Positions 28,847 to 58,727 of a DNA stretch of 64,000 bases are shown here, piece by piece. The notes under the pieces are model-generated. The model saw only the letters and a list, made by a program, of their open reading frames with translations, did not search any database and was not told where the DNA came from. The stretch comes from Bacillus sp. es.036 (GTDB lineage: Bacteria; Bacillota; Bacilli; Bacillales; Guptibacillaceae): positions 558,001 through 622,000 of the forward strand of contig NZ_PDIZ01000003.1 in NCBI RefSeq assembly GCF_002563635.1. The letters are read 5' to 3'. Position 1 is the first letter of the stretch. Every line of letters begins with the position of its first letter. A program made the position numbers and the translations under genes.

Positions 28847-30025
28847 ATGAAAGACGTTTTTATATTGGAAGGTGCAAGAACACCATTTGGTTCATTTGGT
28901 GGTTCACTTAAAGATAGTAATCCAACAGCCTTGGGGATTTCAGCAAGTAAAGAAGCTCTAAGAAAAAGTGGAATAGAGGCTAGTGAAATTGATCTTTCTG
29001 TTATTGGGAATGTGATTCATTCTACATCAAATGCTTCTTATTTAGCGCGTCACATTGCACTTGGGAGTGGAATACCTATTGAAAGTCCAGCACTAACAGT
29101 AAATCGACTTTGTGGTTCTGGTATGCAAGCTGTCATCTCAGCAGCGCAATCCATTATGATGGGGGACGGTCAAACGGCCCTTGCCGGAGGAGCGGAGAAT
29201 ATGAGCTTATCTCCGTATACGTTAAGAGGAAGTCGTTTTGGAGCAAAAATGGGTGCTCCGAAAATGGATGATATGCTTTTGGCTACGTTAACTGATGAGT
29301 ATACTGGAACTGGAATGGGGATAACGGGAGAGAATCTGGCAGTAAAGTATGGGATTTCTAGAGAAGATCAGGATGAATATGCAACTCAAAGTCAGCAAAA
29401 AGCTGCTGATGCAAGAGAAAAAGGTATTTTCATAGAAGAAATTGTACCTGTTGAAGTAAAAGGGAGAAAGGGGATTGAAACCTTTTCAACTGACGAACAT
29501 ATTCGAGAAGGTACAACAGCAGAAAAGCTAGCTGGGCTTAAACCTGCTTTCAAAAAAGATGGAACTGTCACTGGTGGGAATGCAAGTGGCATAAATGATG
29601 GAGCCGCTTCTGTCGTATTGGGAGGAGCAGATTATGTCTCTTCAAAGAATCTTAAGCCACTTGCTCGAATTGTCTCCTGGGGTATAGCGGGAGTAGATCC
29701 TTCGATTATGGGAATTGGACCAGTGCCTGCTATACGGCAAGCATTAGATAAAGCAGGTATGACACTTCAGCAGATGGACTTGATTGAAGTGAATGAAGCC
29801 TTTGCCGCTCAGTATCTAGCCGTTGAAAAAGAGCTAGAGCTTGATCGCTCACGAGTGAATGTGAACGGTGGTGCAATTGCTTTAGGGCATCCAGTAGGTG
29901 CGAGTGGCACGCGTATTCTTTATACACTTATAAAAGAATTAAAGCGTAGAAATGGAAAGTATGGTGTTGCTTCACTCTGCATTGGTGGCGGACAAGGAAT
30001 TGCTATGGTGGTTGAAATCAATTAA
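28847..30025 (+). CDS. Acetyl-CoA C-acyltransferase (thiolase)
   Basis: A 392-residue thiolase. The acyl-accepting Cys is in [11 protein letters not shown] near residue 87, the His of [16 protein letters not shown] near 348, and the second Cys in SLCIGGGQG near 377. It would cleave acetoacetyl-CoA with CoA into two acetyl-CoA, the last step of 3-hydroxybutyrate use in this locus. Biosynthetic direction is also possible for this family. A GAATGGAGGGG site precedes ATG 28847. It lies 98 bases after the SDR and may have its own cre-controlled promoter. Confidence 0.95.
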
Positions 30026-30039
30026 TTTGTCAGAAAAGA

Positions 30040-30068
30040 TTGCCAATTAAATAAATATTGCGTATACT
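30040..30068 (+). promoter_or_regulatory. SigA-type promoter of the rsgA leader
   Basis: TTGCCA (30040-30045), 17 bases, TATACT (30063-30068). It drives a leader of about 270 bases holding a 20-codon frame and two terminators. Confidence 0.78.
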
Positions 30069-30099
30069 AATGGTACTAACATACGGAAAGGGGTTGTGC

Positions 30100-30162
30100 A
30101 TGATGGTAAATAACAAAATGAATTCATTGTTAATTGCATATTGTGCACAGTCCAATTGGTAA
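30100..30162 (+). CDS. Leader peptide (20 residues) upstream of rsgA
   Basis: ATG 30100 (or 30103) follows GAAAGGGG with good spacing and opens a 20-codon frame, read as MMVNNKMNSLLIAYCAQSNW. The last codons (GCA CAG TCC A, 30145-30154) are complementary over ten bases, with one G-U pair, to 30207-30216 in the arm region of the downstream terminator. That pairing would compete with the terminator. This is the layout of translation-attenuation leaders of antibiotic-response genes. The peptide itself probably has no other function. Confidence 0.65.
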   Translation: MMVNNKMNSLLIAYCAQSNW

Positions 30163-30198
30163 GGTAGGAGTCTTTTCTTACTTCTGATTAATAAGATC

Positions 30199-30245
30199 AA
30201 AAACCATGGGCTGTGCGACTGTGTCGCTATGTCTATGGTTTTTTT
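30199..30245 (+). terminator. Attenuator terminator 1 of the rsgA leader
   Basis: AAAAACCAT (30199-30207) pairs with ATGGTTTTT (30235-30243), with an inner GCGAC-TGT-GTCGC stem (30215-30227) and a T run. Its left side overlaps the stretch complementary to the leader-peptide codons, so antiterminator and terminator are mutually exclusive. Confidence 0.8.
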
Positions 30246-30283
30246 ATACTCGATCAGCTAATCATCTACGCTGATTGTAGGAT

Positions 30284-30312
30284 AAGAGCCGACACCACTG
30301 TACGGCTTTTTG
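30284..30312 (+). terminator. Attenuator terminator 2 of the rsgA leader
   Basis: AAGAGCCG (30284-30291) pairs with CGGCTTTT (30303-30310) followed by Ts, 35 bases before the rsgA start codon. A smaller hairpin ATCAGC/GCTGAT (30253-30275) lies between the two terminators. Confidence 0.7.
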
Positions 30313-30346
30313 TCATATTTACACTTATTAATCAGGAGGCTTTCAA

Positions 30347-31396
30347 TTGAATCGAATAACATTAGGTTGGAATTCATACTTTGAAGACAATTATCAAGCT
30401 ATAGCAAATGGATTTATACCAGCTCGAGTTATAGTAGAACATCGTGGAGGTTATAACGTCTCTACAGGAGAAAGTTCTTATGCAGCAGAACTTTCAGGTA
30501 AGTTCCGATTTGAAGTAACACGGCGTGATGCTTTGCCAGCAGTTGGTGACTGGGTCCTTATTGCTCCTAAAACGGATAACAAAGCAATTATTCATGATCT
30601 GCTACCGAGGAGAAGTAAGTTTTCAAGAAAAATTGCAGGGACGACAACTGAGGAACAAATTATTGTAGCTAATGTTGATACGGTTTTTCTTGTCAATGCA
30701 TTAAATCAGGACTTTAACCCAAGTCGTATTGAAAGATACCTTGTCATGGCGTGGGAAAGCGGTGCAAAGCCGGTTATTGTACTCAGTAAAGCTGATCTTT
30801 GTACTGATGTGGAACAGAAAGTAAGTGCTCTTTATAGTATTGCTGTAGGTGTACCGATCCACGTAGTGAGTTCGGCGACCAAAAAAGGGATTGATGAGTT
30901 AAAAGTGTATTTAACAGAGGGAACTACCACAGCTTTGTTAGGTTCATCAGGTGCTGGTAAGTCTACGCTCATAAACAAATTATATGGCAAAGAAATTCAA
31001 GTTGTACAAGATATTCGCCAAGATGACGGCAAAGGAAAGCATACCACGACTAGTCGAGAACTGATAACGCTTCAAACAGGTGGCGTACTAATTGATACGC
31101 CTGGAATGAGAGAACTTCAGCTCTGGGAAACCGATCATCTTTCTCAAAGCTTCCCTGATATTGACGCATTTGCAGAGAAATGTCGTTTTAGAGATTGCCA
31201 ACATGAAGGTGAACCTAAATGTGCAGTGAGAAATGCAATAGAGGAAGGAATGTTAGAAGAAAGAAGGCTTGAGAATTATAAGAAATTCCATCGTGAGCTA
31301 GCTTTTCTTGAGCGACAAACAAATAAGAAGGCTCATCTCGAAGAGAAGAAAAAGTGGAAAAAAATCGCTGGAGATCGAACTAGAAAGAATCGCTAG
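30347..31396 (+). CDS. rsgA: Ribosome small-subunit GTPase RsgA (paralogue type)
   Basis: A 349-residue circularly permuted GTPase of the RsgA/YjeQ family, which acts in late 30S subunit maturation. The order is an N-terminal OB-like domain, G4 LSKADL near residue 145, G1 GSSGAGKSTLIN near 200, G3 DTPGMREL near 245, and a C-terminal zinc site CRFRDCQHEGEPKC. A basic tail rich in Lys ends the protein. It is longer than B. subtilis YloQ (about 300 residues, from memory) and stands alone, not in the prpC-prkC cluster, so it is probably a second copy. It starts at TTG 30347 after AGGAGG. Control appears to be by the leader attenuator upstream. Confidence 0.93.
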   Translation: MNRITLGWNSYFEDNYQAIANGFIPARVIVEHRGGYNVSTGESSYAAELSGKFRFEVTRRDALPAVGDWVLIAPKTDNKAIIHDLLPRRSKFSRKIAGTTTEEQIIVANVDTVFLVNALNQDFNPSRIERYLVMAWESGAKPVIVLSKADLCTDVEQKVSALYSIAVGVPIHVVSSATKKGIDELKVYLTEGTTTALLGSSGAGKSTLINKLYGKEIQVVQDIRQDDGKGKHTTTSRELITLQTGGVLIDTPGMRELQLWETDHLSQSFPDIDAFAEKCRFRDCQHEGEPKCAVRNAIEEGMLEERRLENYKKFHRELAFLERQTNKKAHLEEKKKWKKIAGDRTRKNR

Positions 31397-31425: not shown

Positions 31426-31923
31426 ATGACGGATGAGCGCTCTGTGTTAAACGATTATGCTTCGCTAATTAATTGGTTAGAATCGACTGCGATGGAGATG
31501 AGCGAAACCATCTTCTTTCAGCCTATCAAGCAAGGCAAGTGGTCTCCAGCTGAAATCCTGTCCCATATCATGATGTGGGACAATTATCTTCTTAAAGAAA
31601 GAATTCCTTTTATTGAAATGGAAGCTAATTTGCCTAAACTTGATAACGTTGAAGAAGTAAATCAGCGCGCAGCAGAGTATGCGTTATCTGGTCTAAATAA
31701 AGAAAATTTAGTTGCTGAAACCATACAAGCACGAAGACAAGTGGTGGCCCGCCTTCAGCAATTTGAACCGATTCAGTGGAGCAACACGTTTTATATTGAG
31801 AAGTATCCAATCTGTCTTACAGGTTATATAAAAGGTCTTATTGAGCACGATGATCACCATAAGTTGCAAGTAGAAGTTTTTATGAACGAGCAAGGATTTT
31901 CCCAGTCCCACTTTACCTTATAG
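31426..31923 (+). CDS. DinB-like four-helix protein
   Basis: A 165-residue member of the DinB/YfiT-like putative metalloenzyme superfamily. The conserved KWSPAEILSHIMMWDNYLL lies near residue 38 and the metal-site HDDHHKLQ near residue 143; the three His of SHI and DDHH fit the usual metal triad. Many relatives are thiol-dependent transferases or of unknown role. It begins 30 bases after rsgA with GGAAGGAG, so it may be co-transcribed with it. The biochemical function cannot be told. Confidence 0.85.
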   Translation: MTDERSVLNDYASLINWLESTAMEMSETIFFQPIKQGKWSPAEILSHIMMWDNYLLKERIPFIEMEANLPKLDNVEEVNQRAAEYALSGLNKENLVAETIQARRQVVARLQQFEPIQWSNTFYIEKYPICLTGYIKGLIEHDDHHKLQVEVFMNEQGFSQSHFTL

Positions 31924-38034: not shown

Positions 38035-38093
38035 ACGGCATGGGGAAATAAGCAAGCTTCTATTAAATTTCAAAGAAAGCTTACTACTCCACC

Positions 38094-38225
38094 ATCTTCT
38101 CCCATCCAGACTATACTGTCGGCTCTGGAATCACACCAGATCCTGCCCAAAAAACAGGCTCGCGGGCTTGAGGAATTGCATATCCTTCACCGCCGGTCGG
38201 GAATTACACCCTGCCCCGAAGATAG
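38094..38225 (-). promoter_or_regulatory. FMN riboswitch (RFN element)
   Basis: Read on the minus strand, the conserved RFN blocks are all present in order: GGGGCAGGGTGTAATTCCCG, ACCGGCGGTGAAGGA, a variable arm, GATCTGGTGTGATTCCAGAG and CCGACAGTATAGTCTGGATG, then GGAGAAGAT. FMN binding should favour the terminator downstream and switch off ribU. Confidence 0.97.
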
Positions 38226-38248
38226 TTCGTTATAATGATTACAGCTTT

Positions 38249-56251: not shown

Positions 56252-56389
56252 CTCTTATCTTCCAGGATGAATAACATCCTGTTGGAAGTAGCACCGTGCC
56301 ATCTAAGCCATCCTGAAAAGATGTACTTAAGAATAGGTCGGTTGCTGGGCGTCATAGGGCCAAATCCCTCAGCCTGCTCTTGATAAGAG
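56252..56389 (-). promoter_or_regulatory. SAM-I riboswitch (S-box) of mtnK-mtnA-ABC operon
   Basis: On the minus strand P1 is CTCTTATC / GATAAGAG. Between lie AGAGCAGGCTGAGGGATTTG, GCCCTATGACGCCCAGCAAC, a variable P3, and CACGGTGCTACTTCCAACAG, all S-box hallmarks. High SAM should favour the downstream terminator and turn the salvage and transport operon off. Confidence 0.97.
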
Positions 56390-58617: not shown

Positions 58618-58727
58618 CTCTTATCCAGAGAGGTGGAGGGACGAGCCCTTTGAAGCCCGGCAACCGATTTTTAAGTTTTCTTAAAGACACGGTGCTAATT
58701 CTCGCAGCAAAAGCTGGAAGATAAGAG
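58618..58727 (+). promoter_or_regulatory. SAM-I riboswitch (S-box) of mtnWXBD operon
   Basis: P1 is CTCTTATC (58618-58625) / GATAAGAG (58720-58727). AGAGAGGTGGAGGGACGAG, GCCCTTTGAAGCCCGGCAAC and CACGGTGCTAATTC are the conserved S-box blocks. SAM binding should release the terminator that follows. Confidence 0.97.

Follow-up and report, generated by a model that had tools for sequence, protein, structure and literature searches.

Why do so many genomes of the order Bacillales carry a second RsgA? An rsgA paralogue is detected at E<=1e-50 in 169 of 299 genomes of the order, and in the literature searched we found no account of what it is for. The question is posed here by Bacillus sp. es.036, a Pseudalkalibacillus-like species with a genome of 4.34 Mb (its relatives are called "this genus" below), in which a 64,000-nucleotide stretch of DNA (the window, whose forward-strand coordinates are used throughout) holds an rsgA paralogue, rsgA2, separated from an upstream thiolase gene by an intergenic leader. 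The gene (30347..31396) has a TTG start and encodes 349 amino acids, which match TIGR00157 with a score of 184 (cut-off, 100) and, over the GTPase domain, PF03193 with 190.6 bits (cut-off, 30), the N-terminal domain PF16745 staying below threshold (21 for a cut-off of 27). By eye, the protein displays the motifs GSSGAGKST and DTPGM and a C-x4-C-x-H-x5-C finger. Judged by sequence, RsgA2 is a member of the RsgA (YjeQ/YloQ) family of circularly permuted GTPases and would, by prediction, act in the assembly of the 30S subunit. That it is a paralogue, as an earlier sequence-only reading of this DNA had stated, is borne out by the other RsgA of the same genome, 33% identical to it, and both copies are present in 14 of the 14 genomes searched of this genus. 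YloQ mutants are drug-sensitive, a phenotype of which we found no report in the open-licence literature searched and on which no argument here relies. The nearest named locus among the relatives is that of P. hwajinpoensis (94% for the RsgA2 protein). The RsgA2 matches G112, G260, G165, G216 and G039, from several species of one genus, each hold one in-frame TAA, which may mark either a shorter C-terminus or a broken gene. A DinB-superfamily gene (31426-31923) lies directly 3' of rsgA2, and by eye a similar start adjoins rsgA2 in other loci of this genus.

Upstream of rsgA2, the sequence-only reading had placed a promoter, a ribosome site, a 20-codon frame and two terminators, and each was found where it had been put. 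The sigma-A type promoter (30040..30068; 10 of 12 consensus matches) joins the -35 hexamer TTGCCA (30040-30045) to the directly read -10 hexamer TATACT (30063-30068) through a 17-nt spacer. The leader Shine-Dalgarno (SD) sequence GGGG (30090-30093), also read directly, is followed by a leader open reading frame (ORF) of 20 codons (MMVNNKMNSLLIAYCAQSNW, 30100..30162; ATG at 30100, TAA at 30160-30162); relatives devoid of the first ATG start at the second, here at 30103, which would give 19 codons. Four strands are named after their positions, strand 1 in the SD region, strand 2 at the leader end, strand 3 in the left part of terminator T1 and strand 4 as its right arm. Strand 1 (GGGTTGTGCA, 30091..30100), in the leader SD and spacer, pairs with strand 2 and is a probable anti-antiterminator; strand 2 (TGCACAGTCCA, 30144..30154) is, from pairing and covariation, the left strand of an antiterminator, of which strand 3 (TGGGCTGTGCG, 30207..30217), contained in the left arm and loop of T1, is the right strand. 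T1 (30201..30245) has arms at 30201-30211 and 30231-30241 and seven T at 30239-30245, and T2 (30287..30311) has AGCCG/CGGCT arms at 30287-30291 and 30303-30307 followed by a T run (30307-30311). Segment 5 (CTTCTGATTAATAAG, 30181..30195) is complementary to the rsgA2 ribosome-binding region (30324..30339), the SD of which is AGGAGG (30334-30339). The complementarity around which the sequence-only reading was built, that of GCACAGTCCA (30145-30154) with TGGGCTGTGC (30207-30216), is confirmed over ten bases with one G-U, overlaps the left side of T1 and reaches 11 bases when 30144/30217 is counted.

Simple pattern scans alone give weak support for the promoter and the terminators. One promoter-like site was found for 2.2 expected in shuffles, and a terminator scan that allowed loops of 3-8 only reported neither T1 nor T2. 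The promoter is thereby put at the chance level. It is conservation that carries the case. By eye, members of this genus have similar promoter sites, and a second hairpin with a T run occurs in many other leaders among the matches listed. No Rfam family was found over the leader at gathering score, nor in 29900-30500 at E<=5.

We examined 204 upstream regions, near-duplicates included, from the 14 loci of this genus, from wider relatives and from an order set, 100 further regions having been taken from the order-wide paralogue places. Defined by an SD, a GATGT-like spacer and a short ORF, a leader was recognized in 168 of the 204 regions (169 in a first pass), compared to 11 of the 204 reverse complements and, in five dinucleotide shuffles, 9-13 of 204, a contrast that is inflated because the rule was tuned on the same sequences; even so, the leaders are easily recognized when the sequences are read. 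All 14 loci of this genus have a leader ORF by the rule, and the length of the leader is 16-29 codons among genus representatives. The 35 regions without a leader by the rule in the first pass came from wider relatives (23, among them Paenibacillus and Ignavibacteria) and from the order set (12); four of the former (L094, L099, L104 and L107) have almost no upstream DNA, and 7 of the 12 order-set loci were later assigned a leader by hand. Eleven leader coordinates, four re-picked and seven missed by the rule, were hand-set before the pairing test. The spacer between SD and start often keeps the GATGT motif, which reads TTGT here (window 30086-30105), and by eye this places in many leaders an additional ATG, out of frame, some 7 nt ahead of the start codon of the leader. 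As far as sequence comparison can tell, a switch of the same kind appears to recur in dozens of related bacterial genera.

The pairing of the strands was compared in 59 representatives, one per genus, with one genus counted twice for its second copy. For 2:3, 41 of the 59 ranked within the top 5% of their own shuffles, and for 1:2, 28 did, whereas the control pairing 1:3, of the SD region with the downstream strand, reached this level in 4. When partners were swapped between genera, 95% of the swaps were beaten in 18 (2:3), 13 (1:2) and 3 (1:3) of the 59, counts that are lower because the pairing core is widely shared and swapped partners pair too. Covariation was evaluated in an alignment, A1, of 46 leaders hand-picked from 59 candidates, those dropped being near-duplicates or having a doubtful terminator (L039, L046, L113, L119, L123, L146, L153, L159, L171, L187, L201, L202 and L219); nine others were skipped as too long. 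In A1, 89.2% of the cells of the 2:3 helix are paired, versus at most 45.7% in slid versions of the helix; 8 of its 10 pairs are changed on both sides, and the 39 double-sided cells compare to 8.8 in shuffles, none of 500 being as high. Even the very different strands of some genera, such as those of L147, L200 and L177, are still complementary. The antiterminator 2:3 and the terminator T1 are mutually exclusive through their shared strand 3, according to both covariation and folding. The putative anti-antiterminator 1:2 is supported by folding as well as by the shuffles cited above, but its covariation is not supported in the pooled alignment, for which two registers were tried; in the second, 70.5% of the cells are paired versus 68.5% in shuffles, the double-sided cells number 12 versus 7.2, and 82 of 500 shuffles have a covariation score as high.

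A lack of conservation of the frame or of the pairing in relatives would have refuted the sequence-only reading, which passes this check: frame, pairing and compensatory changes are all conserved across genera. The same evidence bears on the plainest view of the region, that T1 and T2 are the terminators of the thiolase gene, that the ORF arose by chance and that rsgA2 is expressed by constitutive read-through. The thiolase gene does end close by, at 30025, and the promoter does not exceed chance in the pattern scan, yet conservation of the leader before rsgA2 across genera and covariation of 2:3 leave this view next to no probability.

How might the leader switch? We folded 46 leaders up to T1 with a ribosome in place, an assumed footprint from -14 to +16 of the P-site codon being kept single-stranded; such folds depict equilibrium, not kinetics. 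The median probability of T1, P(T1), was 0.90 in the free leaders, 0.06, 0.07 and 0.21 with the ribosome on codons 1, 2 and 4, then 0.51, 0.79 and 0.91 on codons 5, 6 and 7, and 0.95 at the stop codon. With the ribosome on codon 1, P(T1) was below 0.5 in 37 of the 46 leaders and at least 0.5 in 9, whereas at the stop codon it was below 0.5 in 4. Barring strand 1 from pairing lowered the median P(T1) of the free leaders from 0.90 to 0.07, with 38 of the 46 below 0.5 versus 6 when strand 1 was free to pair. Based on the folds with a positioned ribosome and on the block of strand 1, the sensor is predicted to read the start region of the leader, with an ON window at the first four to five codons, and the resting (OFF) state would depend on the 1:2 pairing. 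The claim of the sequence-only reading that a finished leader allows termination and an early stall prevents it is reproduced by the folding model in most leaders, but only in part for the leader of the window, whose own predicted switch is partial: P(T1) is 0.96 in the free form, 0.33-0.55 on codons 1-5, where the probability of 2:3 is 0.34-0.52, and at least 0.88 on later codons. Among 11 leaders listed individually, L161 shows no switch, and in L011, from this genus, T1 has a probability of 0.2 when free and near 0 on codons 9-17.

We propose that the leader is probably a ribosome-mediated attenuator that, as the folding model would have it, restricts the production of RsgA2 to times at which ribosomes have become stuck on its start region. 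At rest, strand 1 would pair with strand 2, leaving strand 3 to enter T1, and transcription would stop; T2 would act as a further lock, as might, in this genus, a helix that covers the ribosome site of rsgA2. When held on the first four to five codons, a ribosome would cover strand 1 and release strand 2, which could then pair with strand 3 in place of T1 and permit read-through. If the ribosome moved on, 1:2 would re-form or strand 2 would itself be covered, and termination would resume. Conservation of the leader, covariation of 2:3 and the folding switch are established computationally. The inducers would be translation inhibitors that arrest ribosomes at initiation or early in elongation, in the manner of lincomycin, pleuromutilins or chloramphenicol, and RsgA2, as a second 30S GTPase made under stress, would help cells to withstand these drugs.

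The leader peptides are loosely conserved and differ widely across genera. Their pN/pS ranges from 0 to 1.63 in six groups, and codons 2-6 of the 59 representatives encode K (14%), I (12%), V (10%), N (10%) and L (10%), with none dominant. Of the 31 genus representatives in which the pairing core was found, 27 have it in the usual frame and 4 in a different one (over all loci, 83, 7 and 5); the RNA core is kept where the frame has changed, which argues against an arrest peptide as well as against a sensor of amino acids. Six Paenibacillus/Cohnella leaders (L079, L083, L087, L091, L097 and L105) have an RSLR stretch in common, which may reflect RNA pairing, of GGTCTCT with AGAGACC. In view of the common frame and of this stretch, the peptide may have a minor role. 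No arrest motif common to the genera was found in the leaders, RSLR being limited to these six, nor did we find a single amino acid encoded by consecutive codons, the criterion of trp-type leaders.

These data weigh on two rival mechanisms. One is a drug-specific arrest peptide of the erm kind, whereby the nascent peptide and a given drug would stall the ribosome deep in the leader. The gene context is the same, with a translation factor behind a leader, and hflXr employs an RLR peptide (excerpt of PMC6310831); the Q-P frame kept in the 27 representatives and the shared RSLR could be taken as traces of such a peptide. We nevertheless judge this mechanism very unlikely, given the divergence of the peptides, a pN/pS that is not consistently low and an ON window at codons 1-5, the RSLR stretch itself perhaps reflecting RNA pairing. 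The other is an amino-acid attenuator of the trp kind, which a short leader with competing hairpins brings to mind; with no dominant amino acid in codons 2-6 and a target that is not a biosynthesis gene, its probability appears minute. The preferred reading remains that of an early-stall sensor whose peptide is little constrained.

To evaluate the specificity of the leader, genomes were searched with a covariance model, R1, that holds no knowledge of the downstream gene. In the genome of Bacillus sp. es.036, a single match below E=0.1 was obtained, the leader described here, and none of the 14 canonical rsgA loci of this genus was matched at E<=1. R1 detected 109 places in 101 of the 299 genomes of the order, 97 of them preceding a listed rsgA2 match by 34-350 nt; two other strong places precede an rsgA-like frame, in genomes with an RsgA2 match. 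Six weak places (L238, L239, L240, L241, L242 and L245; E of 4e-4 to 9e-3 per genome) precede exporters of 583-605 residues that resemble BmrC/YheI, about three chance places being expected at E<=0.01 in 299 genomes. L243, L244, L246 and L247 were read as probable chance matches. One of the BmrC-like exporters, compared with the PDB, gave B. subtilis YheI (BmrC) as its best match (852 bits, the next molecule scoring 450), and for three of the six the best NCBIfam match was a multidrug exporter family, below its cut-off. By analogy, these leaders are the strongest lead to a putative induction by translation inhibitors.

The analogy is with bmrB, the leader of bmrCD in B. subtilis, a proven attenuator that responds to lincomycin, chloramphenicol and erythromycin (PMC4191407; this and the following comparisons draw on excerpts of the papers cited, except where main texts or titles and abstracts are named). 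As proposed for the rsgA2 leader, bmrB is a translated leader with a predicted anti-antiterminator, antiterminator and terminator, and R1 finds leaders, as weak matches, before BmrC-like genes of other genera; unlike it, bmrB controls a multidrug exporter and has its terminator inside the leader gene, and the excerpt leaves the role of the anti-antiterminator open (PMC4191407). In the vmlR leader of B. subtilis, which precedes an ABC-F gene, an upstream ORF (uORF) encoding the tripeptide MIN lies in an anti-antiterminator, and an antiterminator competes with a terminator; the uORF start is needed, its coding sequence is of limited weight, the SD of the main gene is partly sequestered, and cognate drugs stall initiating ribosomes at the uORF start (PMC9226507). 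The rsgA2 leaders would share with vmlR the logic of three alternative structures, the sensing at the start region, the limited weight of the coding sequence and a partial sequestration of the gene SD (PMC9226507), but have 16-29 codons, a strand 2 at the end of the ORF and an RsgA-family GTPase as target. Similar in the nature of the product is rli80-hflXr of Listeria, in which a second copy of a ribosome GTPase stands behind a leader attenuator with an anti-antiterminator and in which the HflXr paralogue confers resistance to lincomycin and erythromycin; its target is HflX, and its peptide of 14 amino acids has an RLR motif (PMC6310831). Likewise, uORFC-6-1, found by comparative genomics before hflX in Bacillales, is a uORF attenuator preceding a ribosome GTPase, with another target gene and a conserved Arg-Leu-Arg peptide (PMC8632094). 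The leader of rsgA2 is most likely an early-stall sensor of the vmlR/bmrB/hflXr kind.

What the stalled ribosome reports deserves a further consideration. The sensor could monitor mainly the state of initiation, its signal being 30S initiation that is slowed or faulty (through immature 30S, cold, 30S drugs or low activity of initiation factors), in which case RsgA2 would close a homeostatic loop of 30S assembly and antibiotics would be one of several causes. An ON window confined to the start region and a product predicted to be a 30S-assembly GTPase are consistent with this idea. However, the bmrB leader of B. subtilis answers 50S drugs and not kanamycin or gentamicin (excerpt of PMC4191407), and a 30S subunit failing to bind the leader would leave strand 1 free, for which the model predicts the OFF state. 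We therefore consider a sensor mainly of the initiation state unlikely and retain the sensing of ribosomes blocked at an early stage.

The sequence-only reading knew of no described case for RsgA. For attenuators this agrees with our searches: none before rsgA was found among the titles and abstracts listed from the open-licence literature searched, in the main texts of a survey of premature terminators (PMC2965389) and of PMC8632094 by term searches, or in the excerpt of PMC6912228. It does not extend to induction as such, since SCO6149, one of the two RsgA copies (an RsgA/EngC paralogue) of Streptomyces coelicolor, is raised in tetracycline-treated cells (PMC7157823). Unlike the mechanism proposed for rsgA2, this increase proceeds via the activator WblC, and the excerpt of PMC7157823 mentions no SCO6149 leader. 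In addition, one table lists rsgA among the translation genes of an organism that produces an inhibitor (excerpt of PMC9290621). The kind of attenuator is thus known, whereas its RsgA target and its breadth appear to be new. An early-stall attenuator would offer a testable answer to our opening question, namely that the second RsgA is made when ribosomes are blocked. If this is true, a protein of 30S assembly is to be added to HflXr and the ABC-F proteins among the factors induced in response to ribosome-targeting drugs, and the leader, which would stay off until ribosomes are blocked at a start codon, might be used to report inhibitors that act at initiation.

Strand 1 is one of three elements that go beyond the sequence-only reading; the others are segment 5, with its complementarity to the rsgA2 ribosome site, and short leaders that seem to act at that site. 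Segment 5 (30181-30195) can pair over 15 bases with 30324-30338. A helix between the spacer and the ribosome-binding region was found at p<=0.05, i.e., beating 95% of shuffles, in 26 of the 42 loci tested (13 of 55 having been set aside for want of a recognized SD), made of different letters in different genera; these are 13 of 14 loci of this genus and 13 of 28 elsewhere. Equilibrium folding of 24 loci does not support the opening of this helix by an early ribosome or by the 2:3 pairing, the median openness of the rsgA2 SD being 0.09 in the free form, 0.13 with the ribosome on codons 1-3 and 0.30 at the stop codon.

The short leaders, 32 hand-picked sequences from other genera that do not have the form seen in the window, carry an anti-SD between leader and gene. 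No terminator is listed for 31 of the 32, and the hits in the remaining one, L153, overlap its ribosome-binding site; another, L219, had been flagged during the selection of candidates for A1. The pairing of anti-SD with SD reached p<=0.05 in 24 of the 32 and that of the leader end with the anti-SD also in 24, the two tests not being independent. In 22 of the 32, a ribosome on codons 1-3 left the SD more open than did one on the last four codons; the SD was less open in 8 and equally open in 2, a mixed outcome for an erm-type translational attenuator, in which a stalled ribosome would let the leader end free the gene SD from the anti-SD. With their anti-SD, and with no terminator listed for 31 of the 32, the short leaders seem to work through the ribosome site of rsgA2, so that a single leader family would have two outputs, termination and a block of the ribosome site. 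Taken further, RsgA2 could be a GTPase devoted to translation stress in Bacillales and relatives, silenced by a largely peptide-independent RNA sensor of ribosomes stuck at initiation, a sensor that would have preserved its logic as its output shifted between termination and ribosome-site block; RsgA2 would then be a drug-tolerance factor on the 30S subunit, as HflXr is on the 70S ribosome. We advance this wider view tentatively, its chances falling slightly short of even. The apparent change of output within one leader family would provide a clean case for the study of attenuator evolution.

Two further observations concern the surroundings of these leaders. In Fictibacillus, the loci L042, L043, L049 and L065 have about 200 bp of extra G+C-rich DNA between the terminators and rsgA2, compared to other Fictibacillus. 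Elsewhere in the window, Rfam families comprise a T-box (2490-2706), an FMN riboswitch (38090-38227) and two SAM riboswitches (56252-56389 and 58618-58727).
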